Shown one piece after another: positions 7,099 through 42,817 of a stretch of DNA of 64,000 nucleotides. The notes beneath the pieces were generated by a model. The model was not told where the DNA came from, ran no database searches, and saw nothing but the letters and a program-made list of their open reading frames with translations. Source of the DNA: Cryptosporangium phraense (lineage in GTDB: Bacteria; Actinomycetota; Actinomycetes; Mycobacteriales; Cryptosporangiaceae); the NCBI RefSeq assembly GCF_006912135.1, contig NZ_VIRS01000035.1:1-64000 (forward strand), in the 5' to 3' direction. The translations under genes and the position numbers were made by a program. The first letter of the stretch is position 1; each line of letters starts with the position of its first letter.

Positions 7099-7102
7099 GC
7101 CG

Positions 7103-7558: not shown

Positions 7559-7580
7559 GCCCGGCATTCTCGCGCCGCCG

Positions 7581-7595
7581 CCGAATTTCATTCGG
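7581..7595. promoter_or_regulatory. Inverted repeat between lrp-type gene and dehydrogenase (candidate Lrp operator)
   Basis: CCGAAT-TTC-ATTCGG, a perfect 6-bp inverted repeat with a 3-bp AT-rich spacer, within the 78-bp divergent gap. Size and position suit an Lrp/AsnC dimer site that could repress both directions. No experimental consensus is matched. Confidence 0.5.
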
Positions 7596-7636
7596 GTGCG
7601 GCTCATACCAGCCAGAGGAACATCTACTTTCGCGGC

Positions 7637-22116: not shown

Positions 22117-22118
22117 GG

Positions 22119-25531: not shown

Positions 25532-25532
25532 C

Positions 25533-26708
25533 TCAGCTCCTCCGGCCGAAGAGTGACAACCGGCGCCTGCCCTCGACCGGCGTGGTGGTCTCGTCCACGT
25601 CCGCGCAGCGGTTCGCGAGCTGCCGGATCGCCTGGCTGACCGGGTTCCCCGGGTCGTCCAGCGCGATCGGCACGCCCTTGTTGATCGAGACCGGCACGTC
25701 CCGCGACGACGGCATGTGCACCGCCATCGGGGTTCCGACCGCTTCCTCGACGTCCGCGATCGTCAGACCCACCTGCGAGTTCGCCCGGTTGAGGAGGGCC
25801 AGCCGCCGTTCCCGCGGGTACTCCAGGACGTCGAACATGTCCAACGTCAGGCGGACGCTCTTGAGCGTCGGCAGGTCCGGGGTGACGACCGGGACGTACA
25901 GATCGGAGACGTCGAGCGCGGACAGGACCTGGTCGGAGAAGAACGGCGGGGTGTCGATCACGACGAAGTCGAACAGCGTCTTGGCGACGTTGATGAGCTC
26001 GGTGACGAGGTCCCGGGTGACGTGCTCCCCCTCGGCCGGGCCGGCCGGAGCCAGCGCCACGTCGACGCCCGGGCAGTACCGGGTGAGCAGCGACCGCAGG
26101 CCGGGCTCGTCCAGCCGGCCGGCCATGCCGATCGCGTCGGCGATGCTCCGGACCGGGGTCAGCTGCAGCATGATCGCGACGTCGCCGAACTGCAGGTCCA
26201 GGTCGATCAGGCAGACCCGGCGGCTGCCGCCGGCGGCCAGCGCGACGGCCAGGTTCGTGGCGACCGTGCTCTTCCCGCAGCCGCCCTTGCCGGAGAAGAT
26301 CGTGACGACCTTCCCCTCCGAGCTCGACTCCTTGTTGCTCTGCACCGCGCTGCGCAGGGCCCGCGACACCTCGAGCGCCCGGGTGCATGCGGCCTTGATG
26401 GCGGCCGGATCGTCCAGGTCCGCGACCTCACGGATGCCGGCCCGCATCGCGTCGGCCAGCATCTGCGGGGTCACCTGGCGACGGAGCAGCACCACCCCGA
26501 GGGCGGGGCTGCGGACCCGCTGGTAGGCGGCGAATTCGACCGCCGCGCCGAACTCGACGCCGGCGCCCAGCACGACCAGCAGCGTTCCCGGGTGCCGCTC
26601 CAGGTGGGCGGTGAGCTTCTTCCAGGAGTTGACCAACGTGAAACCGGCGGCCGCGATGTTCGCCGGTGTGTCGATGATGTTCTCCGCGGACGGTTCGAGG
26701 TAGATCAC
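25533..26708 (-). CDS. CpaE/TadZ-like ATPase (pilus localisation)
   Basis: 391 residues. The N-terminal 130 residues resemble a receiver-like domain without phosphorylation site, followed by a MinD/ParA ATPase with the deviant Walker A FSGKGGCGKSTVATNLA (near residue 137), CLIDLDLQFGDVAIML and VVIDTPPFFSDQVL. Members place the Tad machine at a cell site. Part of the tad operon between cpaB and tadA. Confidence 0.9.
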   Translation of the reverse strand: MIYLEPSAENIIDTPANIAAAGFTLVNSWKKLTAHLERHPGTLLVVLGAGVEFGAAVEFAAYQRVRSPALGVVLLRRQVTPQMLADAMRAGIREVADLDDPAAIKAACTRALEVSRALRSAVQSNKESSSEGKVVTIFSGKGGCGKSTVATNLAVALAAGGSRRVCLIDLDLQFGDVAIMLQLTPVRSIADAIGMAGRLDEPGLRSLLTRYCPGVDVALAPAGPAEGEHVTRDLVTELINVAKTLFDFVVIDTPPFFSDQVLSALDVSDLYVPVVTPDLPTLKSVRLTLDMFDVLEYPRERRLALLNRANSQVGLTIADVEEAVGTPMAVHMPSSRDVPVSINKGVPIALDDPGNPVSQAIRQLANRCADVDETTTPVEGRRRLSLFGRRS

Positions 26709-26724
26709 GCCGGGCTCCTGTCGC

Positions 26725-27462
26725 CTACCGGAAGAGGGTGTCGGTGTCGACGCCGCTGCCCGGCTCGACCGTCACCGCGTCGTTGAGGAGGCCGAGCGAG
26801 AGCGTTCCCGTCTGCGAGGCCTGGACCAGCCGTTCGGCGTCGGTCTGCGTCGTCGCCAGCGTGACCGCGATCATGTCGGAGCTGGCCTTCACCGCCCCGG
26901 CCTCGCCGATCGCCAGCACCTGCACGCGGGGCAGCAGGACCCGGGTCGCGGTGACCTTGTCGGCGTCGGTGGTGACGGTTCCGGAGTTGGCTTCGTCGGC
27001 CGTCGGCTTGTAGGTGTAGAACACCGCGACCTCGGACCCCGGCCGGACGTAGCCGGCCACTCGGGACGCGCCGGTCATGTCGACGCTCACCGCGAGCTTC
27101 CCGGCCGGGATCGTCAGGCCGCCGGTGCTGGTCTGTTTGCGTCCGAGTGCCCCGCGCAGGAGCAGCTGGCTCGGCTGGACGTCGGCGGTGAGGGCCAGGT
27201 TGTCGAGGCCGGCCGGGATCGTGCCGAGCGCGTCGGAGGGAACGGTCTCCGCGGGCATCTGGACGGTCTTGAGCTTGCCGCTGTTGCGCAGTTCGGCGCC
27301 GGTCGTGCCGGCCGGGAGAAGCGTGCTGGCGACCAGCACCTCGACCGGCTTCTTGCCCGCGACCGCGCGATCGTCGGCTCCGCCGACGTAGGCGAGGATG
27401 CCCACGCAACCCAGCAGGGCCAGCACGAACGCGAGCGCCAGCGCCAGTAGTCGACGTCTCAT
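26725..27462 (-). CDS. cpaB: Flp pilus assembly protein CpaB/RcpC
   Basis: 245 residues: an N-terminal membrane anchor (LLALALAFVLALLGCVGILAYV), then a SAF-type domain (VEVLVASTLLPAGTTGAELRN) and a C-terminal beta-rich region (SVDMTGASRVAGYVRPGSEVAVFYTY). In gram-positive organisms it may act as a periplasm-side adaptor of the Tad apparatus. It is followed by cpaE 16 bp downstream. Confidence 0.9.
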   Translation of the reverse strand: MRRRLLALALAFVLALLGCVGILAYVGGADDRAVAGKKPVEVLVASTLLPAGTTGAELRNSGKLKTVQMPAETVPSDALGTIPAGLDNLALTADVQPSQLLLRGALGRKQTSTGGLTIPAGKLAVSVDMTGASRVAGYVRPGSEVAVFYTYKPTADEANSGTVTTDADKVTATRVLLPRVQVLAIGEAGAVKASSDMIAVTLATTQTDAERLVQASQTGTLSLGLLNDAVTVEPGSGVDTDTLFR

Positions 27463-27508
27463 CCGGTAGTTGCCATTCTCGCGGAGCGACCGTTTCGCTC
27501 CCTATCGG

Positions 27509-28789
27509 CTACCCGACCCGCGTTATGAGCGAGACGCCGTAGTCGGTGGTGCCGAGGCTGCCCGCGGACGTCGCCGGGGCCGGGATGATCGCCTGGGTGA
27601 AGTACCCGTTGAGGCAGTAGTCGACGAGGATCGTGCACTGTGGCCCGGACGAGGCACCCACCAGCGAGCCGACGGCCTTGAGCGTGCCGTTGAGCAGCCC
27701 GATCTGGAAGCCCTTGACGACGAACGCCGCGTAGCCGGCGATCCGCAGTGTGTAGGTACTGAGGTTGACGACCGGGTTCCACTGGTAGTCGTAGATCGGG
27801 ATGAGGATCGGGCTGCCGGTGTCGACCGCGTTCTGCAGCGGGGTCAGGCAGTTCACCGGGGCGAGCAGGCCGAGATCGGACGCGGTGAGAACATCGCCGA
27901 CGGTCACCGTCTGCAGGCAGTTGGCGTCGGAGTAGGCGCCGACCAGGAAACCGAAGCCGTTGCCGCCGAGCCACGTGGTCGGCGACGCCGGCGAGGTCGG
28001 CGGGTTGGCGTTGCAGGCGGCGTTCGTCGTGGTCTTGCCGAGCGTGTCGTGGATGAACACCAGGTCGCCGACGGCCGGCGGGTTCGCTCCGATCAGGCTG
28101 CCGACCGACGTCCCCACGTTCCCGAGCAGGCCGGTCAGCAGGCCTCCGACGCCGCTGACCAGGTAGTACAGCAGGCCGTTGTTCGTCATCTTCCAGAACT
28201 CGCAGCGGCCGATGCCGATCGCCAGCACGGTGGCGGTGTTCGGGATGCCCCAGGCGACCCGCGAGCAGGCGCTGAGCTTCGTCCCGGTGTTCGAGGCGTC
28301 CAGCAGGCCGGCGAACGTCGGCGCGAGCTTCGTCGACCCGTCGGTCTGCCGGGTCGACGTGCGAACCTCGACGTACTTCGCGGTCGCCGGGGCGGTGCCG
28401 ATGCAGTCCGAGAGCGCCGAGGTCTGGGCCGGGCACGCGGTCAGCCCGGTGCCGCCGCGTCCGCAGATCAGGCTGACGTCGGACACGCCGTCCTTGGAGT
28501 TCGCGTTGGCCAGCGAGCTCGCCAGCGTCTGCTGGCTCGCGCAGGTGGCGGCCGTCGATGCGGTCGCGCAGACCCGGGCGATCGCCCAGGAGGCCGCGTC
28601 GGCCCCGGTCTGCAACTGTTCCCGCTCGTTGTAGAGCTTGCCGACGTCGACGGTGAGCGTCCCCATGCCGAACAGCACGCCGCCGGCCATCAGGGCGGCG
28701 GCGATGATCGCGACCGCACCCCGGTCGCCGGTCGGACGACGTCCGGCGAGACGGTCCCACCAGGGGCGTTTCGCCGTCAGCCGAGGCAC
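27509..28789 (-). CDS. TadG-like pilus-assembly protein
   Basis: 426 residues. N-terminal DRGAVAIIAAALMAGGVLFGMGTLTVDVGKLYNEREQLQTGADAASWA is the TadG/Tad_N block: a positively charged stretch, membrane helix, and a pilin-like helix. The remainder is extracellular with several Cys (CATASTAATCASQ, SLICGRGG, SACSR, QCTILVDYC) likely in disulphides. Putative minor pilin or tip/anchor protein. Overlaps tadE by 13 bp. Confidence 0.85.
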   Translation of the reverse strand: MPRLTAKRPWWDRLAGRRPTGDRGAVAIIAAALMAGGVLFGMGTLTVDVGKLYNEREQLQTGADAASWAIARVCATASTAATCASQQTLASSLANANSKDGVSDVSLICGRGGTGLTACPAQTSALSDCIGTAPATAKYVEVRTSTRQTDGSTKLAPTFAGLLDASNTGTKLSACSRVAWGIPNTATVLAIGIGRCEFWKMTNNGLLYYLVSGVGGLLTGLLGNVGTSVGSLIGANPPAVGDLVFIHDTLGKTTTNAACNANPPTSPASPTTWLGGNGFGFLVGAYSDANCLQTVTVGDVLTASDLGLLAPVNCLTPLQNAVDTGSPILIPIYDYQWNPVVNLSTYTLRIAGYAAFVVKGFQIGLLNGTLKAVGSLVGASSGPQCTILVDYCLNGYFTQAIIPAPATSAGSLGTTDYGVSLITRVG

Positions 28790-29220
28790 GGCATCACACC
28801 GGTCGCGGTGATCGTCTTGGTCGTCCCGGAGCCACCCAGCAGCGTCAGGATCGGGGTGAGGTAGGTGAACGTCTGGCTGACCGTCACGGTCGCGGTCGAC
28901 GCGGCGGTCGACCCGGACGTCGGGCAGGGCACCGAGGCGGTGACCGTCGTCCCGGTGGTGCCGGTGACCTTCTGGGCCCGCAGGGTGGCGTCCTGGTTGA
29001 ACGCGAGCGCGCGGGCGCCCTCGCGGGCCGCGTCGCTCAGCGTGGCCTGGGCGCTGATCAGCCGGCCGAAGTCGATGACGCCGAAGATCATGACCAGCAT
29101 GATCGGCAGGATGATGGCCAGTTCGATGGCGGCGGCGCCGCGGTCGCTCCCCGACGACGACCGCCTGCCGCCCCGGCGGGTGGCCGGGGCGGCAGGCGGT
29201 CGGTCGAGTCGTCCTCTCAT
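28777..29220 (-). CDS. tadE: TadE-type pseudopilin
   Basis: 147 residues. The sequence DRGAAAIELAIILPIMLVMIFGVIDFGRLISAQATLSDAAREGARALAF is the classical TadE domain, with the conserved Glu five residues after the processing Gly. The extracellular part has two Cys (VPCPTSG and VMPCLG) that may pair. The 30-residue N-terminal tail is Arg/Pro-rich and its DNA contains a strong hairpin (29161-29199). Follows flp copy 1 by 10 bp. Confidence 0.88.
   Translation of the reverse strand: MRGRLDRPPAAPATRRGGRRSSSGSDRGAAAIELAIILPIMLVMIFGVIDFGRLISAQATLSDAAREGARALAFNQDATLRAQKVTGTTGTTVTASVPCPTSGSTAASTATVTVSQTFTYLTPILTLLGGSGTTKTITATGVMPCLG
29161..29199 (-). terminator. Perfect 16-bp hairpin inside the 5' end of tadE
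   Basis: CCGCCTGCCGCCCCGG (29161-29176), 7-base loop CGGGTGG, CCGGGGCGGCAGGCGG (29184-29199). It lies 32-70 bases downstream of the flp copy 1 stop. No T-run follows. It may attenuate read-through from the abundant pilin message into tadE and the assembly genes, or shield the tadE start; either is inference. Confidence 0.55.
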
Positions 29221-29230
29221 GGGCGGCCCG

Positions 29231-29422
29231 TCAGGGCAACAGGTCCGTGATCTTCTGGAACGCGGTGTTGATCTTGCCCCCCAGGCTGAGCACCGTCGCG
29301 ACGATCACCGCGGCGATCAGGGCGGCCAGCAGGCCGTACTCGACCGCGGTGGCACCTCGGTCGGCCCGGGCGCGCAGCACTGCGACGCGGGACGTGACCG
29401 CGGTGTAGGCGAACAGGAGCAT
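29231..29422 (-). CDS. Flp-type pilin, copy 1
   Basis: 63 residues from the ATG at 29422 with GGAG five bases upstream. Type IVb pilin: basic leader MLLFAYTAVTSRVAVLRARADRG, cleavage expected after Gly in RG/ATAVEYGLL, the G-x4-EY Flp motif, a hydrophobic helix (AALIAAVIVATVLSLG) and the short tail KINTAFQKITDLLP. The shortest-leader copy; differs more from copies 2 and 3 than they do from each other. Structural subunit of the Flp pilus. Confidence 0.9.
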   Translation of the reverse strand: MLLFAYTAVTSRVAVLRARADRGATAVEYGLLAALIAAVIVATVLSLGGKINTAFQKITDLLP

Positions 29423-29479
29423 CGGTACTCCGCTCAGGAACAGCCGGTCCGTCCGTGGACCGGCCAGCGGGGGTGGTGC

Positions 29480-29513
29480 CTTCGGCGTGCTCCCGAGCGG
29501 GAGCACGCCGAAG
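29480..29513 (-). terminator. Perfect 15-bp hairpin after flp copy 2
   Basis: CTTCGGCGTGCTCCC (29480-29494), loop GAGC, GGGAGCACGCCGAAG (29499-29513), eight bases after the stop of flp copy 2. Very stable; a rho-independent-like terminator or a processing/stability stem that would uncouple pilin from later genes. Confidence 0.75.
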
Positions 29514-29521
29514 ACCGTGGA

Positions 29522-29725
29522 TCAGGGCAGGGTCGAGCTGACCTTGTTGAACGCCGTGTTGATCTTGCCGCCGAGCGCGAGCACGGTCGCGACGATGACG
29601 GCGGCGATGAGGGCGGCCAGCAGGCCGTACTCGACAGCGGTGGCGCCCCGCTCGGAGCGGGCCTTCAGAGCGTCCATGCGAACGGCGGCGCGGGAGACAA
29701 CGGCGGTGTAGGCGTGCAGGAACAT
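29522..29725 (-). CDS. Flp-type pilin, copy 2
   Basis: 67 residues from the ATG at 29725 (AGGA six bases upstream; an alternative ATG 3-4 codons earlier is possible). Leader MFLHAYTAVVSRAAVRMDAL KARSERG, cut site before ATAVEYGLL, helix AALIAAVIVATVLALGG, tail KINTAFNKVSSTLP. Identical to copy 3 over the leader and the first part of the helix, differing by one residue in the helix (A/T) and in the C-terminal tail. Confidence 0.9.
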   Translation of the reverse strand: MFLHAYTAVVSRAAVRMDALKARSERGATAVEYGLLAALIAAVIVATVLALGGKINTAFNKVSSTLP

Positions 29726-29851
29726 CGATCCTCGCTTCATGTCGGTCGGTCCATCCGTGGGCCGGCCAGCAAAACTGCTACCGGACAATCCAGCCATCGG
29801 CAGCCGCGCCGATGGGGATGAGGAAAATCGGGTAAGTATCCAGGCGGCGGA

Positions 29852-30055
29852 TCAGGTCAGGTTCGCGTTGATCTTGCTGAACGCCGTGTTGATCTTGCCG
29901 CCGAGCGCCAGGACGGTCGTCACGATGACCGCGGCGATGAGAGCAGCGAGCAGGCCGTACTCGACCGCGGTGGCGCCACGCTCGGAGCGGGCCTTCAGCG
30001 CGTCCATGCGGACGGCGGCGCGGGAAACGACGGCGGTGTAGGCGTGCAGGAACAT
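29852..30055 (-). CDS. Flp-type pilin, copy 3
   Basis: 67 residues from the ATG at 30055 with a G-rich ribosome site (GGGGGT) upstream. Same leader and processing site as copy 2, tail KINTAFSKINANLT. First gene of the leftward pilus cluster. The nucleotide differences from copy 2 are mostly synonymous, so the duplication is old enough to have drifted but the protein is conserved. A small hairpin (arms 29794-29801 and 29808-29815) separates it from copy 2. Confidence 0.9.
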   Translation of the reverse strand: MFLHAYTAVVSRAAVRMDALKARSERGATAVEYGLLAALIAAVIVTTVLALGGKINTAFSKINANLT

Positions 30056-30171: not shown

Positions 30172-31929
30172 TCAGCGCACGGTGGCGGCGGAGCCGCCGC
30201 CTCGCCTGGTCGGTTCGGCGGCGGCCAGGAGGCGGCCGTTCTTCAGGAATTCGATCCCGGTCGCGGCCCCGATCTCCTTCACCGGGGCGAACGTCCAGCC
30301 CCGTGCCGTCAGCGCACCGGTGTCGAACGCCGGTTCGGCGTCGACGGCCTTCCCGTTCCTGGCCGACGCCCGGGGAGCGGCGATCGCCTGCGGCAGCGTC
30401 AGGCCGCGGTCGAGCCGCCCGAGGAGGATCTGGAGCACGGTCGTGATGATCGTGGCCCCGCCCGGCGACCCGACCGCGAGCAGCGGCCGGCCGTGGCTGA
30501 GCACGATCGTCGGCGCCATCGAGCTGCGCGGACGCTTGCCCGGACCGGGCAGGTTCGGGTCCGGGACACCCGGCGTCACCGGGGTGAAGTTGAAGTCGGT
30601 GAGCTCGTTGTTGAGCAGGAAGCCCCGGCCCGGGACCGTGATCCCGGAACCGCCGGTCTGCTCGATCGTCAGCGTGTAGGCGACGACGTTGCCCCACTTG
30701 TCGGCGACCGTGAGGTGGGTGGTGGACGGGCCTTCGTAGGGCGTCTTGGTATCACTGGCGGCCGGTCGGGCGCAGTCGCCGCCCGGGGTGTGCGGGTCGC
30801 CGGGCGGCTGCGGGGTGGTGAGCGCCTTGTCCGGGTCGATCAGGCAGGCGCGGGTGGCCGCGAACCGGTCCGACAGCAGACTGCTGACCGGCACGCCGGG
30901 GACGTCTCCGACCCAGCGGTTGCGGTCGGCGAACGAGAGCGTGGACGCGGCCAGGTAGCGGTGCAGGTAGTCGGTCGCGTCGAGGCCCTTCAGCCCGGTC
31001 TTCTCGACGATGTTGAGCGCCTCGCCGACCGTGGTGCCGCCGGAGGACGGCGGGGCCATGCCGTAGACGTCGAGGCCCTCGTAGCCGGTCTTGGTCGGGG
31101 TCCGGAACGGGGCCGTGTAGGCGGCCAGGTCGTCGGCGGTGAGCTGGCCCTGGCGCACCGGGGCGCTGGCCGGCGGGTTCTGGGCCGTCTTGACGATGTC
31201 GCGGCCGATCGGGCCCCGGTAGATGGCCTGGACGCCGTCTTGGCCGAGGAGGTCGTACGTCTTCGCGAGATCCGGGTTGCGCAGCGTGGTGCCGACCGCG
31301 GGCGGCTGACCACCGGGGAGGAAAAGGGCCTTGGTGGCCGGGAAGTTGGCGAAGCGTTTCGCGTTGTCGGCGGTCTGGTCGTGGAACGTCTGGTCGACGA
31401 CGAAGCCGTTGCGGGCCAACCGGGTGGCCGGGGCCAACGTCTGCTCGAGGGTTCGGGTGCCCCATGCGTCCAAGGCGTTCTGCCAGGTCAGTGGGGTGCC
31501 TGGCACGCCGATGCTGAGGCCGCTGGTGACCGCGTCGGCGAACGGGATCGGTTTGCCGTTCTCGGTGAAGACCGTGGGAGTGAAGGTCTTCGGGGCGGTC
31601 TCCCGGCCATCGATCGTGTGGACGCGGTGGTGCTTGGCGTCGTAGTAGACGAAGAAACCGCCGCCGCCGACGCCGGCCGAGTAGGGCTCGGTGACGCCGA
31701 GGGCGGCGGCCGTGGCGACGGCGGCGTCTACGGCGTTGCCGCCTCGGCGGAGGACGTCGATGCCGATCGCGGTGGCGTCGGGGTCGACGGTGGCGACAGC
31801 TCCGCCATAGCCAGTTGCGGTCGAGGTCGGTTTTGCCGGAGCCACGGCGCTGGCTGTCGTCGGGGCGGCAGCGAGGGTCAGTGCGGTGACGCCGGATACC
31901 ACTCCGAGGAGCTGACGCAGCTTCGCCAT
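30172..31929 (-). CDS. ggt: Gamma-glutamyltransferase (secreted)
   Basis: 585 residues with a signal peptide (about 1-28). Hydrolyses or transfers the gamma-glutamyl group of glutathione or related peptides outside the cell. Ntn-hydrolase precursor: the autocatalytic and catalytic Thr is Thr403 in PSTTHLTVADKWGNVVAYT; RRGGNAVDAAVATAAALGVTEP and GVGGGGFFVYYD are N-terminal blocks, and GSPGGATIITTVLQ the C-terminal one. Since this organism makes mycothiol, the natural substrate may be another gamma-glutamyl compound. Preceded by the giant surface protein gene (52 bp). Confidence 0.95.
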   Translation of the reverse strand: MAKLRQLLGVVSGVTALTLAAAPTTASAVAPAKPTSTATGYGGAVATVDPDATAIGIDVLRRGGNAVDAAVATAAALGVTEPYSAGVGGGGFFVYYDAKHHRVHTIDGRETAPKTFTPTVFTENGKPIPFADAVTSGLSIGVPGTPLTWQNALDAWGTRTLEQTLAPATRLARNGFVVDQTFHDQTADNAKRFANFPATKALFLPGGQPPAVGTTLRNPDLAKTYDLLGQDGVQAIYRGPIGRDIVKTAQNPPASAPVRQGQLTADDLAAYTAPFRTPTKTGYEGLDVYGMAPPSSGGTTVGEALNIVEKTGLKGLDATDYLHRYLAASTLSFADRNRWVGDVPGVPVSSLLSDRFAATRACLIDPDKALTTPQPPGDPHTPGGDCARPAASDTKTPYEGPSTTHLTVADKWGNVVAYTLTIEQTGGSGITVPGRGFLLNNELTDFNFTPVTPGVPDPNLPGPGKRPRSSMAPTIVLSHGRPLLAVGSPGGATIITTVLQILLGRLDRGLTLPQAIAAPRASARNGKAVDAEPAFDTGALTARGWTFAPVKEIGAATGIEFLKNGRLLAAAEPTRRGGGSAATVR

Positions 31930-31981: not shown

Positions 31982-34900
31982 TCAGTGACCCCGTCGATGC
32001 ATCGCGTGATCCAGGTCGGGGGCCCAGTTCAGGCCGATGACCTGCGGTTCGTACGGCAGCGCGTGCTTGCCCAGACGTCGCAGCGGCGAGCGGGACGGGC
32101 CCCGTCGAACGGCCTGGCGGGCGACGATGCCAGCCACCAGGAGCAGCGCCCCGATCAGGCCGGCGGCGAGGTTGCCCGGGGAGGTCGAGGCGAGCGTCGT
32201 CCGCGGGAGCGTGGTGCTCGCGGAGACCTGACGGGTGTTGCTCGCTACCGCGGCCGACGTGCCCCCGTAGGTGTACTGGCTGGTCGCGACCCCGCTGTTC
32301 GTGATGACGTGGACGACGCTGGTGCCCGCGGTGCACTTCGGGGCGGTGAACGTCAGCGAGGTGCCGGTGCTGTTGACCTGGACCGCACTGGCGTCGACGC
32401 GGGCGCCGCAGATGACGACCGTGGTGTCGGCGCCGCCGAGGTTCGTGCCGGCGATCGTGACCGCGGTGCCGCCGGCGGCCGGACCCCGGGTGGGTGTGAG
32501 GCTCGTGATCGCCGGGTCGGCGTTGGCGATCGCCTTCGGCGCCAGGGCGGTCGCGGAGGCGAGCATCGGCGGGCGGAGGCCGGTGGCCGGGGCTCGGTCG
32601 AAGGCGATCATCGGGGCGGCCAGGGCGGTGACGCCGGTCGGGAGTTTCGAGACCGGGGCGCCGGCCGGGGCGATGAGCAGCGGGTCCGCGGCGGCGAACT
32701 CTTCGGTCTGGTCGGGTTGCTGGATCGGGGCGCTGGCTTTTTCGGCGGACTGGATGGCGGCGGCCCGGTTGGCGAGGACGTTGGCTTGGGCTTGCTGAGC
32801 CGGGGTTTGCTGGGCCGGGTCTTCCTGGGCCGGGTCTTCCTGGGATGCGCCTTCCTGGGCCGGGGTGCCGGATTGGGCTACCCCGGAGGACGGGGCTCCG
32901 GATTGGGCCAGGATCGAGGAGGCCGGGGCGACGGGTTCGGTCCAGTCCGGGACGAGCGGGTCGCTGGAGGCGGCCTCGTCTTCGTCCTGGGGGTTGCCGG
33001 GTTGGTTCATGGCCACCGGGTGGGTGGCCGGGTTTTGCGGGGTGGTGATCGGGCCGGTGGAGATCGGGGTGCCGGTGCCCTTGGTCTGGGCTTCGGTTTC
33101 CGGGGCCGCGTTGGTCGCCGGCATTCCAAGGATGGAGCCGCCCGGCTCGGGCGGAACCGGCGCGGCGGCGCCCGGGGCGGTGACAGGTGCGCCAGAGGCC
33201 GGGGTGGCCGCCCCTGGGGCAGCGGCTGAGCCCGCGGCCAGCGGGGTGGTGGTCGGGTGGGTGGCGGGCGGGGCGGCGCAGGCGGCTTCGGCTAGGCGGA
33301 TGGTGCCCAGGTCGATGGCGGACTCGCTGGCCGTCAGGGTTGCTTCCACGACGGCGCGGGCGCCGTCGGAGTCGGTGTGTTCTTGCTGGTGGATGGCGAC
33401 GCTGACCTGCACGCCGTCGGCGGCGGTCACGGTCGCCGGGCCGGCGCCGACGTCGATCGGCGAGCCGCCGACCCGGAGGCCGGTCACCGAGACGTCGGTG
33501 CGCGGCTCGGAACCGCCGGCCGGCGGGCAGCTGACCTCGGCCCGGACCTGGTCGGCGGCGAGGATCGCGGTGCCCAGCGCGGCGACCTCGAGGCTCCCGA
33601 GCGCGGCGGTGGCGCGCGACTCGCTCGCGCCCCGGACGGCCTTCACCGTCGTAGCGGTGCCGTGCGCCGAGATCGTGCCCGAGTTGGCACTCACCGGGAC
33701 CCCGCTGCGGCTCGCTTCACCCTCGTGCGCCGGGGCGTCGGCGGTGACGCCGCTCCGCGACAGCGCCATGAACCGCACGGTTCCGGCCCCGGAGCTGTCC
33801 GCCTCCACGGAGTCGCTCCCGCCGCCTCCGGCGGCGCGTTTCGCGCTCGCCTTCGGCGCCGATCGGGACACCAGCGCGGGGCGTGCTGCCTCCGAGGCCT
33901 CCTGCCCGGCCGGGTCGGCCGCGGATCCGGTCTTCGCGCCCGAGGCGCGCGCGCCCCGGTCCGCGCTATCCGGGTGCGCGCTATCAGCGACCGCGCCGCC
34001 CGTGCGCGCGCCGCGCGCCCGCGCGCCGTCGGCGGTCGCGCCGCCTGCCTCCGCGCCATCGACGGCCGCGCCGTCCACGCCCGCGCCGTCCACGCCCGCG
34101 CCGTCCACGCTCGCGCCGTCCACGCCCGCGCCGTCCACGCCCGCGCCGTCCACGCCCGCACTGTTCGCGCTCGCGACGTTCGCATTCGCGTTGTCCGCGC
34201 TCGGGCCGTTCGCATTCGCGCCATCGGCACCCGCGGTGTCCGCGCCACCAGCACTCGCGCCATCCGAAGACGCGCCGCTCGCGCTGTCCGCGTCCACCCC
34301 CGTGCCCGCGTCCACCCCCGTGCCCGCGTCCTCCACGGCGTCGGAAGCGGCCCGGCTCAACTCGGCAGAACGAAAGTCGACCGCCAAGACCCCGGCCGAC
34401 GCATCGCCGGCCGCGCGCACCGACGGGTGCGCCAGAGCGCTCGACACCAACGGCGCCGACACCGTGTTCGCGCTCGCCGGACGCTCCGCCACCGCCAACA
34501 CCAGCGCCATCGCACACGGCACCGCGACCAGCACCGCCTTCAGCCCGGTGTACAACCCGCCACTCATCCGAGCCCGAGGCGGCGTGTGCCGCCCCCGCGG
34601 ATAACGCGTGCGACGCATCCTCGCCCCCCTCGGGTAACTCGTGCTCATCCGGACCACCGGCAGCGTGAGCCCCCGCGCACCCCAGACACACCCGGCGCCC
34701 AGCACCAACAGCACGACGCCTCCCAGCGCCAGCCCGTCGATGCCGAACCCCGTCACATCGGTTCCGGTCGTCGGCAGCCAGTTCGAGCCACCGGTGTGAC
34801 GAACCGGCCGCTTCGTCCCGCCGGAATTCCCGCCGTTGTCGCCGGAATCCCCGCCGTTGTCACCGGAGCCCGGCTCCGCGGCCGCCGCGGCGAACGTCAC

Positions 34901-37900
34901 CTCGGCATCGGTGCTGCCGTCCGGCGTGGTCAGCGTCGCGATCTGCTTGCCCGCCGGGCAGGCCGGCGCCACGAACGACGCGCTCGTGCCGTCGGCCGAC
35001 ACCGTGACGTCGGAGGCCGCGATCGTGTGTCCACAGATCACCACGGTGGTCTTGCCCGGGACGAAGTTCTGGCCGATGACCGTGACCTTCCCGCCCGGGT
35101 CGACCTTGGCCGGCTTCACGCTCGTGTCGACCGGCGGCTTGGGCGTCGGCGGCGTCCCGCCGTTGTCGCCCCCGCCGTTGTCCCCACCGCCGTTGTCTCC
35201 ACCGCCCGTGTCTCCGCCGCCGGTGTCCCCGCCGCCGGTGTTCGCGGTGTAGTAGGTGTAGGTCAGCGGCTGCGCAGGCACGTTCCCGGTGGTGACGACC
35301 ACGAAGACGTCACCGGCCGCGTGCGCGGGCGCGTCCGCGGTCAGCGTCTGGGCGTTCGTGACCTTCACGTTGGTGGCCGCGATCCCGTCGAACGTGACCG
35401 TCGTCGTGCTGTCGAAACCGGTACCGGTGATCGTGACGGTCGTCCCGCCGGTCGTCGGACCGGTCGTCGGCGTCATGCCGGTCGCCGACGGGCCGGCCGC
35501 GTACGTGACGTCCTTGGTGGACGCCGCGTCCTGGCCCGGCAGGATCACCTGGACGTCGGCGACGGTGCCGGCCGGGTTCGGCGGCGCCTTCGCGACGACC
35601 TGCGAGTTCGGCGACGTGGCGGCCGCCCGGAGCAGGCCCGCCGTCCGCACCGAGGACGACCCGCTGGTCATCGCCTTGGCCGACACCAGCGTTCCGGCCT
35701 GGCCGTTGAACGTGACCCCGATCGCGTCCTGCAGGTTGACGCCGTTGATCGTCACCAGCGTGCCGCCGGTGATGTTCGCGTACGGCGGCACGACCGAGGT
35801 GATCGCCGGCGGCGTGTACGTGATCGTCCCGGCCTTCTTCGTGCTCCGGTCCGAGAAGACCAGCAGCACGTCCCGAGGGCCCTGCTCGTGCGGCGGCGCG
35901 TTGACGGTCACCCGGGTGTCACTCGCCGAGACGTTGCTGCCCGCGAGGTTGTCGAAGACGACGCCGGTGACGCCGGCCATCCCGGTGCCGGTGATCGTCA
36001 CCAGCGAGCCGCCGTACGTCGGGATCGACGCCGGGCTCAGCGACGTCGGCGTGGCCGCGTCGGACGCCGGCGGGACGGTCGCCGCGACGAACGTGTACCC
36101 GCCGGCCGACTTGGCGTCCGCGCCCGGCAGCGTCACGACGACGTCCACCGGGCCGGCCGGGTGGCTCGGCGTCGTCACGGTGATCGACTTGCCGTCGTTG
36201 GCCACGTTCATGTTCAGGCCGGCGATGCCGTCGAACCGCACCGCGGTCGCCAGCCCGAGCCCGGTACCGGTGACGGTCACGACCGTGCCGCCGTTGACCG
36301 TCCCGGAGTTCGGCGTGATCGCGGTGATCGTCGGCCCGACGTACGTCACCGTGCCGACCTTCTTGTTGCCGGCCGGGAACTCCAGTGTGACGTCGACGTC
36401 GCCGGCGTCCTCAGTGGCCGGGATCTTCGCGGTCAGCGACGTCCCCGCGGTGTTGACCTGGACGTCGGTCGCCGCGACCTTCCCCACGAGCACGCGGGAG
36501 ACGTACTTCAGGCCGGTGCCGAAGATCTGCAGCGTCGTGCCACCGGAGGTGGCCGACGTCTCGGCCGAGAGCGTCGCCGTGGTCGAGCTGCCGTCGGCGA
36601 GGTAGGTGAACTTGGCCGGGGCCGGCGACTGGCCGGGCTCCTCGACCGTGATCGCCGCGTCGCCGACCGTGCCCGGCGGCGTCACGAACGCGATCCGCGT
36701 GCCGTCGTCGCTGGCCGTGAACTGAACCGGCTGACCGTTGATCTTGACGCTGGTCGCCGCGGCCAGGCCGGTACCGGTCAGCGTCACCGCCGTACCGCCC
36801 GACTCGACGCCGGTCTGCGGCGACACCGAGGTGATCGTCGGTGCGTCGTACTTCAGCGCCGGCGCGTCGATGCGGCCGCGCGGGAACACCACGACGACGT
36901 CGGCGGTGCCGTCACTCGACGGCGGCGCGGTGACGACGAGCGTCTTCCCGTCCGGGGAGGCGGACGTGATCGTCCCCGGGACCCCGTCGAACGTCACCTG
37001 GGTGGCGTCGTCGAGGCCGGTGCCGGTCAGCGTGACCGGTCCGCCGGACGCCGGGACCGACGCCGGGCTCAGCCCGGTCACCACGGCGCCGGTTCCGTCG
37101 GCGATGTAGGTGAACGTCTCCTTCGGAGGCGAGTCCCCGGCGTAGCGCAGGACGACGTCCGCGTCACCCGGCGTCCCCGGCGGGGTCGTGAACGTCATCC
37201 GGGTGCCGGCCGCGTTCACGGTCGGCTCGACGACGTTCCCACCGACGATGACGCTCTGGACGCCGCCGAGCGCGAACCCGTCGATCGTGATCTCGGTGCC
37301 GCCGGCGGCCGGACCGCTGTTCGGCGACATGCTCGTGATCGTCGGACCGCTGTAGTAGAAGCCGCGCGGCACCGTGCTCGACACCGAGCCGGTGGCGATC
37401 GAGGTCGTGAGCACGACGTCGGCCGGACCGGAGCCGGAGGCGGTGACGTCCGGGCTCAGCACCGTGAGCGAGGTGTCGGTGCCGCCGCTCAGGATCGTCG
37501 CGGGCTGCCCGCGGAACGTCACCGAGGTGACGTCGCCCAGGTTGGAGCCGGTGATGACGACGGTGGTGCCCCCGGCGACCGGCCCGAAGGCCGGCAGGAT
37601 CGTGTCGACGACCGGCGCGTCGGCCGCGCGGTAGGCGTAGCTGGTCGCGAGCGTGGCGTCCCGTCCGGGCAGCTGGACGGTGACGTCGACGACCGCGGCG
37701 CTGTTCGTGGCCGGCGTCCGGGCGGTCAGCGTGTTACCCGAGCCGCTCACCGAGACGTCGGTGGCCGGCTGGCCGCCGACCAGCACCTTCTGGACGCCGG
37801 TGAAGCCGATGCCGGTGACCGTGATCAGCGTGTTGCCGGCCAGCGGGCCCTGCTGCGGGAAGACGCCGTAGATCGCCGGCGGGTAGTAGGTGATCGTGCC

Positions 37901-40900
37901 GGCCGCGGCCGTGCCGCCCGGGAACCAGATCGTCACCGGCACCGAGCCGGAGTCCTCCATCGGCGGCGCGGTGACCGTGATCTGGGTTCCGTTCGCCGAG
38001 ACGACCAGGTCGGCGCCCTCGCCCGGTCCGACCTCGGGTCCGTCCACCGGCTTCGACCCGACCCCGAACGTCACCGCGGTCGCGCCGTCGAAGTTCGTGC
38101 CCTGCAGGGTCACGGTGTCGCCGGCGGTCGGGATGCGTCCCGGGCTGAGGCTGGTGACCGTGGTGTTGCTGCCGTCCGGCACGTACCGGTACGCGTCCTT
38201 GCGGACGGCGTCCAGGCCCGGCAGCGTCACGGTGACGTCGACCGATCCGGACGCGTGGGCCGGCGCGGTCACCCGCACCGCGGAGCCCGCCGGGTCGGCG
38301 TCGGTGATCGTCGCGGGCTGGCCGTCGAACGTCACCGCGTCGGCGTCGGCCAGGCCGCTACCGAGCACGGCCACGGTGTTCGCGCCCGACACCGAGCCGG
38401 ACGCCGGGCTGAGCGCACGGATCACCGGCGCGACGTACTGCAGCTGAGCGGCCGACAGCGCGGACCCGTTCGGCGTCACGACCGCGACGTCGACCAGTCC
38501 GTCCACCTCGGACGCCGGAACGTTGGCGCGGACCTGGGTCGCGGTCGGCGTACCGACGATCGTCGCGGGCTTGCCGCCGATCGTGACCGAGGTAGCACCG
38601 TCCAGATTGGTGCCGGTGAGCGTGATGACCTCGTCGCCGGCCGTCGGGCTGGACGTCGGCGACATCCCGGTCACGGTCGGCGGCGGCAGCGGCGAGTACG
38701 TGTACCCGCCGACCCGGGTGGCGTCCAGGCCGGGCAGGACGACGACGACGTCCACCGTGCCGGCCGCGTGCGCCGGCACGGTCGCGGTCACGGTGCCGTT
38801 CTGGTCCACCGCGAAGTCCGTGGTGGGCTGGCCGTCGACGGTGACCGCGGTCGCGGCGCCGAGGCCCTTACCGGAGATCCGGATCTGGGTGCCGCCGTCG
38901 ACGTACCCGCGGTCGGGCGCGACCTGGGTGATCGACGGGCCGACGTACACCGCGGTGCCGCCGGGGTAGGTGCCCTTCGGGAACTGGGTGACGACCGGGG
39001 CCGGGCCGGCCGACTCGCGGGCCGGCGCGGTGGCGGTCAGCGTGGTGCCGTCCGCGCTCACCGAGACGTTCGTCCCGGGGGTGCCGCCGAACGTGATCCC
39101 GGTCGCGCCGGTCAGGTTGGTGCCGGTGACCGTCACCTGCCCGCCGGACGTGGCCACCGACGGCGCGACGTTGGTGACGGTCGTGTTGGAGCCGTCGGCC
39201 ACGTACGTGTACGTCAGCGGGTCGGGGTCGGAACCGGCGACGTCGACCTCGACCTTCGCCGGGCCCGCCTTGCCCGCCGGGGTCGTGAACACCAGCGTGG
39301 TGTCGTTGACCTTCTGGAACGTCACCGGGGTACCGCCGACCCGCACCTGGGTCGCGGTGCCCAGCAGCGTGCCCTTGAGCGTCACGCTGGTGCCGCCCGC
39401 GACCACCCCGTTGTCCGGGGTGATCGACGTGAGCTTCGGCCCCTCGTACGTGTAGCCGTTGGGCAGGATGCCGGTGCCGGCCGCCGAGGTGACCGCGATG
39501 TCGGCCGGTCCGGTCTGCTCGGACGGCGGGGTCGTCACGGTCAGGTTCGTGTCCGAGTTGACGGTGAAGTTCTGCGCCGGCGTGCCGTCGAACGTCACCG
39601 CGGTCGTGCCGGTGAAGTTCGCGCCGGTCAGCGTGATCGTCTCGCCGCCCCCGGACGAACCGGTGTCCGGCACCACCGCGCTGACCCGCGGAGCGAGCGG
39701 CTCCACGTACCCGTAGCCGCCGGTCGAGGTCGCGTCGGCGCCGGGCAGCTCCACGACGACGTCGACCAGGCCACCGCTGTGGGCCGGCGAGGTGACGGTC
39801 AGGCCGGTGGACGTGACCTGGAGGTTCGTCGCCTCGATGCCGTCGAACGTGACCCGGGTCGCGGCGCTCAGCCCGGTGCCGGTGATCGTCACCGTGTCAC
39901 CGCCCGCGGTCGGGCCCTGGGCCGGCCGGATCGAGGCGATCTTCGGCGCGGTGTACGTGATCGGGTCGGCGGTGACCTTGCCGGCCGGGAACGTGAGGAC
40001 CACCGGGGCGTCGCCGGGCTTGTCGGTCGGCGGCGCGGTGAACGTGATCGACGTGTCGGTGGCCGAGTACGTGGTGATCGGGACGCCGTTGACCGAGACG
40101 GCGGTGACGTCGCCGAGCCCGGAGCCGGTGATCGTCACCGGTCCGCCGCTGGTCGGCAGCGTGTCCGGGGAGACGTCGGTGATCGTCGCGCCCGAGCCGT
40201 CGTTCTGGTACGTGTAGCCGTTCGTCGAGGTGGCGTCCGCGCCCGGCAGCACGACGACGACGTCGACCGGGCCGGGGGCGTGGGCCGGGACCGTCGCCTG
40301 GATGCCGGTGCCGGCCGTGTTCACGGTAAAGTCGGTGACCGACTTGCCACCGAACGTGACGTCGGTGGCGCCGGTGAAGTTCGTGCCGGTGATCGAGACC
40401 GTGGTGGTGCCCGCGGCCGGGCCGCTCACCGGGTTGATGCCGGTGATCGTCGGCGGCTGGTAGGTGATCTTGCCGGCCTGGGCGGTGCCGAGCGGGTACT
40501 CGATCACGACCGGGACGTCGCCGCCGGTCTCGCGGGCCGGGGCGGTGACCGTGATCGTGGTGCCGGCCGGGTTGATCGTCATTCCGGTGCCGGCGATGCC
40601 GTTGAACAGCACGTCCGAGGCGCCGGTCAGGTTGGTGCCGGTGATCGTCACCTTCTTGCCGGACGTCGGGATCGGGCTCGGGTCGATGCCGCTGACCGTC
40701 GCGGCCGAGCCGTCGTAGAGGTACGTGTAGGTGAGCGGCGCCGGGTCGGCGCCGGTGACCTGCACGGTCACCGGGGCGTCGCCGGGCGTGCCGGCCGGGA
40801 CGTTGAAGACGATGTCGGTGTTGGTGCGGCTGATGATCGTGCCCGCGTTGTCACCGACCTTCACGCTGGTGACCGTGGCCAGACCGGTTCCGGTGAGCGT

Positions 40901-42742
40901 GACGTTCGGGCTGCCCGACTGGGGTCCGGAGCTCGGGTCGACGGCGGTCAGCGTCGGGCCGACGTACGTGAAGCCCTGCGGGAGCGCTCCGGACGTGTTG
41001 TCCGAGGTCTTCAGCGCGATGTCCACCGGCCCGGTCTTCTCCGAGACCGGCGTCCGGACCGTGACCGACGTGGCGGTCGGGCCGCTGACGATCGTCGCCG
41101 GCGTCCCGCCGACCGTGGCCGCGTTGACGTTGCCGAAGTTCGTGCCGGTGATCAGCAGGTCGGTGCCGCCGACCGTCGATCCGCTGGTCGGCGACACGGT
41201 CGACGGCGACGGAGCGCTCGGCGCCTGGTACGAGTAGCCGTTGCTCAGCGTCGCGTCCAGGCCGGGCAGTGAGACCACCACGTCGACGACGCCCGGCGCG
41301 TGGGCCGGCGCGTTCGCGGTGATCGACGTCCCGTCGGCGCTGACCTTGACGTTCGTCGCCGGAGCACCGCCGAACGTGACGCCGTCGGCGCCGGTCAGGC
41401 CCTTGCCCGAGATCGTCACCGCGGTGCCGGCGGTCTCCGGGCCCTGCGACGGCACGACCGCGTCGACGCTTGGCGCGAGGTAGGTGTAGTTGCCCCCGTT
41501 CACGGTGCCGGCCGGGAACACCACGGTGACCGGCACCGCCCCGGCCTTCTCCGAGCTGGGGATCGTCCCGGTGATCTGGGTGCCGTCCGGGCTCACGACG
41601 ACGTTGGTCGCGGCCGTGTCGCCGATCTTCAGGCCGGTGGCGGCGCCGAGCCGGGATCCCGTCACCGTGACCTTCGTCCCGCCGGACGTGTAACCGGACG
41701 ACGGCGACGGCGGGTTGACGGTCGCGTCCGAGCCGTCGGCGAGCGCGGTGAACGTGAGCGGCGGCGAACTGCCGCCGCCGGCCGAGGTGACGACGACGTC
41801 CTGCGGTCCGACGGTCATCTGCGGGGTGGTGAACGTGACCTGGGTGCCGTCGCTGGAGACGTTCGTGACGGTGGCCGGCGTGCCGCCGACCGTCACCGAC
41901 GTGTTGCCCTGGACGAAGCCGGATCCCTTGACCGTGACCGAGGTGCCACCGGACTGCTTGCCCGACGGCGGGTCGAGGCTGGTGGCGACCGTGGCCGGCA
42001 CCGCCGGCTTCTGGCAGGTGGCGGTCGCGATCGCGATCGTGCCGAGGCTGACGTCGATGCCGAGGTCGGCGGTCAGCCTGAGCGCGATCGACAGCGCGGT
42101 CGCGTTCGCGGAACTGGCGGTGGTGTTCTCGACCCGGGAGACGGTCGCGCCGAGCTTGGCGTTGAGCAGACCGGGCACCGAGACCGTGAGGCCGGGGATG
42201 ATCTGGGGCGCGCCGGCCGAGACGTTGACGGTCTTGCCGAGGACGCTCACCCCGGCCAGCGACGTCTTGACGGTCTGGGCCCCGCTGGTCGGGCAGGTCG
42301 CCTCGGCCGAGATCACGCCGTTGGCGCCGGTGTCGAGGATCGACGCGCCCAGACCCTTGATGCTGATGCCGCTGATCTGTGACCTGGCCGACGAGCTCAC
42401 CGTCGAGCGGGTGGCGGTGATCGAGTCGACCTTGGCCCCGATCTGCACCGCCGAGGCCGCGTCGGTGCCCAGGTTGACCGTGGTGTCGGTGGCGGTTCCC
42501 CCGTTGGCCGGTGCGTCGGCCTTACCGAGGACCGTGTTCAGCGTCAGCAGCTGGAGACCGGCGACCTTGGCGCCCAGCCCGACGACGATGCCGCGCGCGG
42601 CCGCATCGCCGGACGCCGCTTCCGCGCGACCGCTCGGCACCTGCCCCAGGACACCGCCGAGCAGAAGGACGGCCATCACCACGCCGAACCAACGCAGTAT
42701 CGAGCCCCGCCCCCACCGACGGGCCGAAATCGCCAGTTGCAT
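31982..42742 (-). CDS. Giant IPT/TIG-repeat surface protein; apparent in-frame fusion of two anchored proteins
   Basis: 3586 residues. Part one: signal peptide (1-42), a choice-of-anchor-P-like domain (about 45-250), 26 IPT/TIG immunoglobulin-like modules of about 86 residues (256-2498), a GGGD/GGGN linker, a Cys-containing IPT-like module (TTVVICGHTI, about 2530-2620), then LPTTG at 2656-2660, a membrane helix (about 2668-2690) and an Arg-rich tail: a complete cell-wall sorting signal. No stop follows. Part two starts at Met2709 or Met2726 with another signal peptide (LKAVLVAVPCAMALVLAV), an Ala/Asp/Gly repeat tract, a second choice-of-anchor-P-like domain, one more Cys-containing IPT (TTVVICGARV), LPRTT at 3512-3516, a helix and a basic tail. 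Likely adhesin. No sortase gene is in the window. Confidence 0.88.
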   Translation of the reverse strand: MQLAISARRWGRGSILRWFGVVMAVLLLGGVLGQVPSGRAEAASGDAAARGIVVGLGAKVAGLQLLTLNTVLGKADAPANGGTATDTTVNLGTDAASAVQIGAKVDSITATRSTVSSSARSQISGISIKGLGASILDTGANGVISAEATCPTSGAQTVKTSLAGVSVLGKTVNVSAGAPQIIPGLTVSVPGLLNAKLGATVSRVENTTASSANATALSIALRLTADLGIDVSLGTIAIATATCQKPAVPATVATSLDPPSGKQSGGTSVTVKGSGFVQGNTSVTVGGTPATVTNVSSDGTQVTFTTPQMTVGPQDVVVTSAGGGSSPPLTFTALADGSDATVNPPSPSSGYTSGGTKVTVTGSRLGAATGLKIGDTAATNVVVSPDGTQITGTIPSSEKAGAVPVTVVFPAGTVNGGNYTYLAPSVDAVVPSQGPETAGTAVTISGKGLTGADGVTFGGAPATNVKVSADGTSITANAPAHAPGVVDVVVSLPGLDATLSNGYSYQAPSAPSPSTVSPTSGSTVGGTDLLITGTNFGNVNAATVGGTPATIVSGPTATSVTVRTPVSEKTGPVDIALKTSDNTSGALPQGFTYVGPTLTAVDPSSGPQSGSPNVTLTGTGLATVTSVKVGDNAGTIISRTNTDIVFNVPAGTPGDAPVTVQVTGADPAPLTYTYLYDGSAATVSGIDPSPIPTSGKKVTITGTNLTGASDVLFNGIAGTGMTINPAGTTITVTAPARETGGDVPVVIEYPLGTAQAGKITYQPPTITGINPVSGPAAGTTTVSITGTNFTGATDVTFGGKSVTDFTVNTAGTGIQATVPAHAPGPVDVVVVLPGADATSTNGYTYQNDGSGATITDVSPDTLPTSGGPVTITGSGLGDVTAVSVNGVPITTYSATDTSITFTAPPTDKPGDAPVVLTFPAGKVTADPITYTAPKIASIRPAQGPTAGGDTVTITGTGLSAATRVTFDGIEATNLQVTSTGLTVTSPAHSGGLVDVVVELPGADATSTGGYGYVEPLAPRVSAVVPDTGSSGGGETITLTGANFTGTTAVTFDGTPAQNFTVNSDTNLTVTTPPSEQTGPADIAVTSAAGTGILPNGYTYEGPKLTSITPDNGVVAGGTSVTLKGTLLGTATQVRVGGTPVTFQKVNDTTLVFTTPAGKAGPAKVEVDVAGSDPDPLTYTYVADGSNTTVTNVAPSVATSGGQVTVTGTNLTGATGITFGGTPGTNVSVSADGTTLTATAPARESAGPAPVVTQFPKGTYPGGTAVYVGPSITQVAPDRGYVDGGTQIRISGKGLGAATAVTVDGQPTTDFAVDQNGTVTATVPAHAAGTVDVVVVLPGLDATRVGGYTYSPLPPPTVTGMSPTSSPTAGDEVITLTGTNLDGATSVTIGGKPATIVGTPTATQVRANVPASEVDGLVDVAVVTPNGSALSAAQLQYVAPVIRALSPASGSVSGANTVAVLGSGLADADAVTFDGQPATITDADPAGSAVRVTAPAHASGSVDVTVTLPGLDAVRKDAYRYVPDGSNTTVTSLSPGRIPTAGDTVTLQGTNFDGATAVTFGVGSKPVDGPEVGPGEGADLVVSANGTQITVTAPPMEDSGSVPVTIWFPGGTAAAGTITYYPPAIYGVFPQQGPLAGNTLITVTGIGFTGVQKVLVGGQPATDVSVSGSGNTLTARTPATNSAAVVDVTVQLPGRDATLATSYAYRAADAPVVDTILPAFGPVAGGTTVVITGSNLGDVTSVTFRGQPATILSGGTDTSLTVLSPDVTASGSGPADVVLTTSIATGSVSSTVPRGFYYSGPTITSMSPNSGPAAGGTEITIDGFALGGVQSVIVGGNVVEPTVNAAGTRMTFTTPPGTPGDADVVLRYAGDSPPKETFTYIADGTGAVVTGLSPASVPASGGPVTLTGTGLDDATQVTFDGVPGTITSASPDGKTLVVTAPPSSDGTADVVVVFPRGRIDAPALKYDAPTITSVSPQTGVESGGTAVTLTGTGLAAATSVKINGQPVQFTASDDGTRIAFVTPPGTVGDAAITVEEPGQSPAPAKFTYLADGSSTTATLSAETSATSGGTTLQIFGTGLKYVSRVLVGKVAATDVQVNTAGTSLTAKIPATEDAGDVDVTLEFPAGNKKVGTVTYVGPTITAITPNSGTVNGGTVVTVTGTGLGLATAVRFDGIAGLNMNVANDGKSITVTTPSHPAGPVDVVVTLPGADAKSAGGYTFVAATVPPASDAATPTSLSPASIPTYGGSLVTITGTGMAGVTGVVFDNLAGSNVSASDTRVTVNAPPHEQGPRDVLLVFSDRSTKKAGTITYTPPAITSVVPPYANITGGTLVTINGVNLQDAIGVTFNGQAGTLVSAKAMTSGSSSVRTAGLLRAAATSPNSQVVAKAPPNPAGTVADVQVILPGQDAASTKDVTYAAGPSATGMTPTTGPTTGGTTVTITGTGFDSTTTVTFDGIAATNVKVTNAQTLTADAPAHAAGDVFVVVTTGNVPAQPLTYTYYTANTGGGDTGGGDTGGGDNGGGDNGGGDNGGTPPTPKPPVDTSVKPAKVDPGGKVTVIGQNFVPGKTTVVICGHTIAASDVTVSADGTSASFVAPACPAGKQIATLTTPDGSTDAEVTFAAAAAEPGSGDNGGDSGDNGGNSGGTKRPVRHTGGSNWLPTTGTDVTGFGIDGLALGGVVLLVLGAGCVWGARGLTLPVVRMSTSYPRGARMRRTRYPRGRHTPPRARMSGGLYTGLKAVLVAVPCAMALVLAVAERPASANTVSAPLVSSALAHPSVRAAGDASAGVLAVDFRSAELSRAASDAVEDAGTGVDAGTGVDADSASGASSDGASAGGADTAGADGANANGPSADNANANVASANSAGVDGAGVDGAGVDGASVDGAGVDGAGVDGAAVDGAEAGGATADGARARGARTGGAVADSAHPDSADRGARASGAKTGSAADPAGQEASEAARPALVSRSAPKASAKRAAGGGGSDSVEADSSGAGTVRFMALSRSGVTADAPAHEGEASRSGVPVSANSGTISAHGTATTVKAVRGASESRATAALGSLEVAALGTAILAADQVRAEVSCPPAGGSEPRTDVSVTGLRVGGSPIDVGAGPATVTAADGVQVSVAIHQQEHTDSDGARAVVEATLTASESAIDLGTIRLAEAACAAPPATHPTTTPLAAGSAAAPGAATPASGAPVTAPGAAAPVPPEPGGSILGMPATNAAPETEAQTKGTGTPISTGPITTPQNPATHPVAMNQPGNPQDEDEAASSDPLVPDWTEPVAPASSILAQSGAPSSGVAQSGTPAQEGASQEDPAQEDPAQQTPAQQAQANVLANRAAAIQSAEKASAPIQQPDQTEEFAAADPLLIAPAGAPVSKLPTGVTALAAPMIAFDRAPATGLRPPMLASATALAPKAIANADPAITSLTPTRGPAAGGTAVTIAGTNLGGADTTVVICGARVDASAVQVNSTGTSLTFTAPKCTAGTSVVHVITNSGVATSQYTYGGTSAAVASNTRQVSASTTLPRTTLASTSPGNLAAGLIGALLLVAGIVARQAVRRGPSRSPLRRLGKHALPYEPQVIGLNWAPDLDHAMHRRGH
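34071..34160 (-). repeat. Six 15-bp tandem repeats
   Basis: Units of CCGTCCACGCCCGCG start at 34071, 34086, 34101, 34116, 34131 and 34146, with single-base differences in units three and six. On the coding strand each unit gives a GVDGA-like pentapeptide (residues about 2861-2890) in the Ala/Asp/Gly tract of the second part of the giant protein. Likely to vary in copy number between strains. Confidence 0.8.
34619..34631 (-). promoter_or_regulatory. Internal ribosome-binding-like site before Met2709 of the giant ORF
   Basis: The leftward strand reads GAGGGGGGCGAGG directly before the ATG at 34618-34616. That ATG (MRRTRYPRG) is followed 17 codons later by another Met and a signal-peptide hydrophobic core, so an independent second product starting here is plausible alongside the fused protein. 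Confidence 0.5.
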
Positions 42743-42817
42743 AAAGGCAACGTACGAAATAAATCAATAGCCCGGTAAGTGAGCAAACGGGTGCAATTCA
42801 GGTGCAGAAATGGTGCG

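Follow-up and report, generated by a model that had tools for sequence, protein, structure and literature searches.

A Cryptosporangium gene joins two paralogous surface-protein units in one open frame through an internal LPTTG signal and an internal signal peptide-like helix

Sorting signals recognised by sortases are held to act at the C-terminus of proteins. Internal signal peptides that are cut in bacteria are already known from fbcH of Bradyrhizobium, a single gene that gives rise to cytochrome b and cytochrome c1 through a precursor cut by signal peptidase at an internal signal peptide. LPVTG seems to be a motif recognised by SrtE, the class E sortase of Actinoplanes missouriensis, and the LPxTG substrates SspA, CwpA and CwpB of that species are apparently served by a class E sortase; their signals are C-terminal and the portions of the source available describe no fusion (PMC13251363). 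The gene analyzed here resembles these substrates in its first half (part 1), which carries an LPxTG signal, and differs from them in the internal position of that signal and in being fused to a second unit. It resembles fbcH in that two membrane proteins are joined through an internal signal peptide, but fbcH encodes respiratory proteins and contains no sortase signal.

The window analyzed is a stretch of 64,000 nucleotides from Cryptosporangium phraense (genome G000), in which a reading of the open frames revealed one uninterrupted ORF of 3586 codons on the minus strand spanning both units. Its parts follow in the order signal peptide, N-domain, 27 TIG repeats, Cys-TIG module, LPTTG, helix 1, Arg-rich linker, helix 2 followed by an AxA site, and part 2, a paralogous unit of smaller size. 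The features of the gene are as follows.

42743..42810, minus strand: promoter-like leader, read by eye (TT(A)ACA-like, about 18 nt, TACGTT, 6-7 nt, ATG)
31982..42742, minus strand: fused gene, 3586 aa, single open frame (ORF; same fusion in G001)
42617..42742, minus strand: signal peptide of part 1, residues 1-42 (hydrophobic segment 15-33)
41996..42613, minus strand: part 1 N-domain, a paralogue of the domain in part 2 (hhalign and N-domain profile matches)
35141..41995, minus strand: TIG/IPT repeat array of part 1 (Pfam TIG and NF058597 matches)
34826..35140, minus strand: Cys-TIG module of part 1 (VVICG ... PAC) with the following spacer
34763..34777, minus strand: internal LPTTG, residues 2656-2660, kept in G001
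34685..34741, minus strand: helix 1, residues 2668-2686, sorting-signal membrane helix, retained in G003 too
34544..34684, minus strand: linker, residues 2687-2733, strongly basic, free of Asp and Glu, expected to be cytosolic
34624..34630, minus strand: Shine-Dalgarno-like AGGGGGG ahead of the internal ATG
34616..34618, minus strand: internal ATG (M2709), possible second start
34487..34543, minus strand: helix 2, residues 2734-2752, internal signal peptide-like; N-terminal signal peptide in G002
34469..34477, minus strand: signal peptidase-like AxA site, ASA, residues 2756-2758 (ERPASA), invariant in four species
33272..33787, minus strand: part 2 domain, predicted all-beta by the structure model (mean pLDDT 85)
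32243..32527, minus strand: Cys-TIG module of part 2 (VVICG ... PKC)
32195..32209, minus strand: LPRTT, unconserved, not a sorting motif
32120..32176, minus strand: helix 3, residues 3523-3541, preceding a basic tail

The two halves repeat one layout, as the initial annotation had noticed. Their N-domains are homologous (hhalign probability 97%, E 6e-11) and their Cys-TIG modules are alike, each with VVICG and a second Cys. Part 1 is a TIG/IPT repeat protein with 27 matches to Pfam TIG (PF01833) and 26 to NF058597, while part 2 has one Pfam TIG match. The choice-of-anchor-P-like domain proposed earlier was not supported: no NCBIfam model of the choice-of-anchor P family matched at E<=1, and the repeats match NF058597 (choice-of-anchor Z repeat) and Pfam TIG. 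A fold search with both N-domains gave no significant PDB match, the model of the part 1 domain being poor (pLDDT 57). Part 2 also contains a low-complexity region of GVDGA type (33800-34350), which is far shorter in G001 and missing in G002 and G003.

At the end of the first unit, the elements of an LPXTG signal are present inside the ORF as had been claimed: the pentapeptide LPTTG, the helix and the Arg-rich linker. With 931 residues between it and the ORF end, this signal is not C-terminal. At the end of the second unit, the claim of anchoring was borne out for the helix and the basic tail and failed for LPRTT as a sorting signal; this sequence does not fit the LPXTG motif, lacks conservation in G001 and G003 and is missing at that place from the nearest homologues. 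Part 2 is therefore predicted to end in a helix and a basic tail with no demonstrable sorting signal, and a C-terminal stretch, EPQVIGxxWxPDLxxA(xxRRG) at 31982-32100, is common to G000 and G001. The search of the genome for sortases that had been recommended returned a single PF04203 match (E 4.8e-33), located beside an anthranilate/aminodeoxychorismate synthase component and a crgA-like gene, a neighbourhood that we take as typical of class E sortases, and hence the enzyme as class E-type. Other proteins of the same genome end in normal C-terminal LPxTG signals detected by TIGR01167, one of them with LPTTGTN...RRRT-stop, and a pattern search of the genome for LPxTGxD/LAxTGxD found no further C-terminal signals. 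In L074 and L076, LPVTG and LALTG signals with unusually long tails beyond the Arg cluster are other non-standard signals in the genus.

A search with the N-domain profile covered 399 genomes of the order, 24 of which were positive; G000 and G001 alone had two matches within one open frame, and G000 again supplied the sole such frame among 395 genomes sampled across the class. Complete relatives from two other families numbered 23, comprising 20 with complete C-termini and three longer TIG proteins (L139, L140 and L144), and all 23 carry LPxTG or LAxTG 35-41 residues before the stop, in keeping with the earlier remark that such signals normally end a protein. The single-unit TIG proteins among the relatives (for example in L147, L155, L185 and L189-L197) share with part 1 a signal peptide, the same N-domain (37% identity and E 2e-32 for L147), TIG repeats, a VTICG-type Cys-TIG module and LPVTG-helix-Arg; they end at this signal, whereas in the fused gene 931 residues and a second unit come after it. 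In G347, from another family, an unfused tandem pair is present on one strand (L155:2856-5474 and 5578-8286), and both genes end in LPVTG-helix-Arg-stop. This pair is like the fused gene in consisting of adjacent paralogues with the same orientation and architecture, and unlike it in having separate stops and LPVTG kept in both members. Single gene, tandem pair and fused pair thus all occur in present-day genomes. The fused pair need not have descended from a pair like that of G347; in the tree, part 1 and part 2 grouped weakly (support 33). Combined, the homology of the halves, the stop just past the Arg tail in single-unit relatives and the unfused pair in another family agree with the initial proposal of an in-frame fusion of tandem paralogues, and the loss of a stop fits as its history.

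The fusion was followed through the four genomes of the genus that were compared (G000 to G003). In G001, assembled as a single 9.2-Mb contig, the same open fusion encodes 3509 aa (L015:2372-12901, minus strand) and carries SNWLPTTGTDVTGFGIDGLALGG(I/V)VLLVLGAGCVWGARGLT, nearly letter for letter as in G000; when checked for a stop, its junction proved to be open, and it carries the internal LPTTG as well as the second signal peptide. In G003, the TIG body and LPTTG are gone and helix 1, the linker and helix 2 stand in frame with part 2, the gene starting at an ATG placed like the start of the other species relative to the shared promoter-like leader. G002 has part 2 only, and helix 2 serves as an ordinary N-terminal signal peptide. 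The leader is homologous in all four species, even ahead of the reduced genes (with TACCTT in G003), and its spacing of 6-7 nt to the ATG suggests a leaderless mRNA. The join is therefore real, since at least two species have it in their DNA and a third retains it in part. A tree of neighbouring genes paired G002 with G003 (support 99, with weak placement of the root), and the remnant of helix 1 in G003 points to a fused state that predates the split of these species. In another genus of the family (G004), mshD adjoins pstS and leaves no room for the fused gene or the gamma-glutamyltransferase (GGT) gene, so that, among the genomes compared, the insert at the mshD-pstS site is particular to the genus of G000 to G003. 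A search of genome contigs for related loci with part 2 or the junction returned no relatives, those described here having come from a separate genome search; the junction-profile matches in G082 and G186 from the order-wide search were inspected and found to be unrelated.

The DNA of the junction, re-read codon by codon, contains neither a stop nor a change of frame, as had been reported. Over the 42 codons that run from SNWLPTTG to TLP, G001 departs from G000 by 4, 0 and 14 changes at codon positions 1, 2 and 3, and 2 amino acids are altered; from this pattern, the LPTTG-helix block appears to be under strong purifying selection. In the linker the changes are 13, 15 and 13, as for DNA with no coding constraint, and in helix 2 they are 4, 4 and 6. 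These differences indicate that the two signals are preserved while the spacer between them is free. The frame of the linker is nonetheless kept through indels in three species. A stretch of 32-38 codons of such composition is stop-free by chance with a probability of 0.43-0.55 (shuffling), which makes an open linker weak evidence by itself. The second signal peptide claimed initially is present, as helix 2 followed by ERPASA; an internal signal peptide and a cleavage motif thus lie in one open frame, as in the polyprotein encoded by fbcH, and the ASA after helix 2 is identical in four species. The 47 residues that separate helix 1 from helix 2 include 11 Arg or Lys and no Asp or Glu, and the flanks are net acidic.

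The favored reading, which we regard as evenly balanced, is that the product of the gene is a precursor in which two paralogous surface proteins are fused, with sortase cutting at LPTTG and signal peptidase at ASA. What is observed is that related units share one frame and that the sorting signal of the first and the signal peptide of the second are kept inside the ORF in two species. The model is favored by the fusion in G001, the frame kept over indels, the apparent selection on LPTTG-helix, the invariant AxA and the basic linker, as well as by the presence of one sortase with normal LPxTG proteins, the apparent recognition of LPVTG by SrtE and the 23 relatives that end at their signal. Counting against it are the linker without coding constraint, the chance that such a linker stays open, the failure of TIGR01167 to match the internal LPTTG signal even at E<=10, and the persistence of helix 1 in G003 where LPTTG is gone. 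With a basic linker and acidic flanks, the positive-inside rule would place the linker in the cytosol, with helix 1 running out-to-in and helix 2 in-to-out, and such a topology would allow one chain to put both parts outside. The first signal peptide would direct the export of part 1; transfer would halt at helix 1, leaving the Arg-rich linker cytosolic, and helix 2 would restart export, with helix 3 holding part 2 in the membrane. The single class E-type sortase would then cut LPTTG between T and G, attaching the giant TIG protein to the peptidoglycan, and cleavage after ASA would fall to signal peptidase I. One chain would thereby yield two surface proteins in a fixed ratio, one a giant TIG protein anchored to the wall and the other its membrane-anchored partner, possibly with extra part 2 made through internal initiation at M2709.

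Internal initiation may also be the main source of part 2, the fused product being a by-product of the missing stop. The initial annotation had noted a second ATG with a Shine-Dalgarno-like site and had offered a regulated pair of products, fused and internally started, as an alternative; the site was verified, and such a pair is a plausible candidate, the Shine-Dalgarno-like site and the ATG being kept in two species. M2709, with its ATG at 34618 and AGGGGGG ahead, outranks all other in-frame ATGs of the G000 gene (21 scored) in anti-Shine-Dalgarno pairing (-11.3 kcal/mol), and the homologous ATG of G001 ranks third among 18. Two of the four AGG Arg codons of the gene fall within a few codons ahead of M2709, and AGGGG, 7 nt and ATGCGT are kept by G000 and G001 as an exception within the otherwise free linker. 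However, in a gene with no stop each ribosome that completes part 1 must enter part 2, the Shine-Dalgarno sequence is missing in G003, and the signal was noticed post hoc in two genomes only; on balance we lean against this reading while taking it seriously. A scan of the junction, poorly suited to GC-rich actinobacteria, found no sigma-70-like promoter or terminator. If LPTTG and AxA were not processed at all, the product would be a giant membrane protein with three helices, its two domains exposed and a helical hairpin between them. Helix 1 is unusually conserved for the helix of a sorting signal and persists in G003, which has neither LPTTG nor the rest of part 1 (6, 3 and 19 changes by codon position), so that it may have a role apart from sortase; an unprocessed protein is nevertheless unlikely given that LPTTG is exact in G000 and G001, that AxA is found in all four species and that the genome has a sortase and normal LPxTG proteins. 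A functionless join left by the chance loss of a stop would account for the unconstrained linker and for the loss or reduction of the fused unit in G002 and G003, but is quite improbable in view of the constraint on both junction signals and the frame kept in three species despite indels. The welding of two genes by an assembly or sequencing error, for which no supporting evidence turned up, can be set aside, because the independent single-contig assembly of G001 has the same fusion and G003 keeps the junction in frame.

The upstream neighbour of the gene is an mshD-like acetyltransferase, and downstream, outside the fused gene, lie the following.

30172..31929, minus strand: gamma-glutamyltransferase (GGT), downstream neighbour in all four species
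20600..30055, minus strand: Tad/Flp pilus cluster (Flp pilins, TadE, TadE/G-like, RcpC/CpaB, CpaE, CpaF/T2SSE, T2SSF)

The Tad/Flp cluster, with several copies of the Flp pilin, sits between GGT and pstS (also L063). Among the four species compared it is found only in G000 and G001, the two that have part 1, and its CpaE had no close match genome-wide in G002 or G003, which are devoid of part 1. This suggests that the giant TIG protein and the Tad/Flp pili belong together, although with four species the co-occurrence could reflect a single joint loss or gain. A surface polyprotein that is cut by sortase and signal peptidase, gives equal amounts of both products and is functionally tied to Tad pili is a tentative reading, which we place a little short of even balance.

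The fusion of tandem surface-protein genes is, as an event, of a known kind. The relatives sampled showed no conserved internal sortase signal with an internal signal peptide behind it, and a literature search, with most subscription journals outside its coverage, turned up no account of an internal LPXTG that precedes such a peptide. Annotation rules that seek LPXTG only at the C-terminus would overlook such proteins. Single gene, unfused tandem pair, fused pair and reduced remnant form a natural series in present-day genomes, and the conserved natural internal signal offers a ready test case for whether a sortase can process a mid-chain signal in a polytopic protein.
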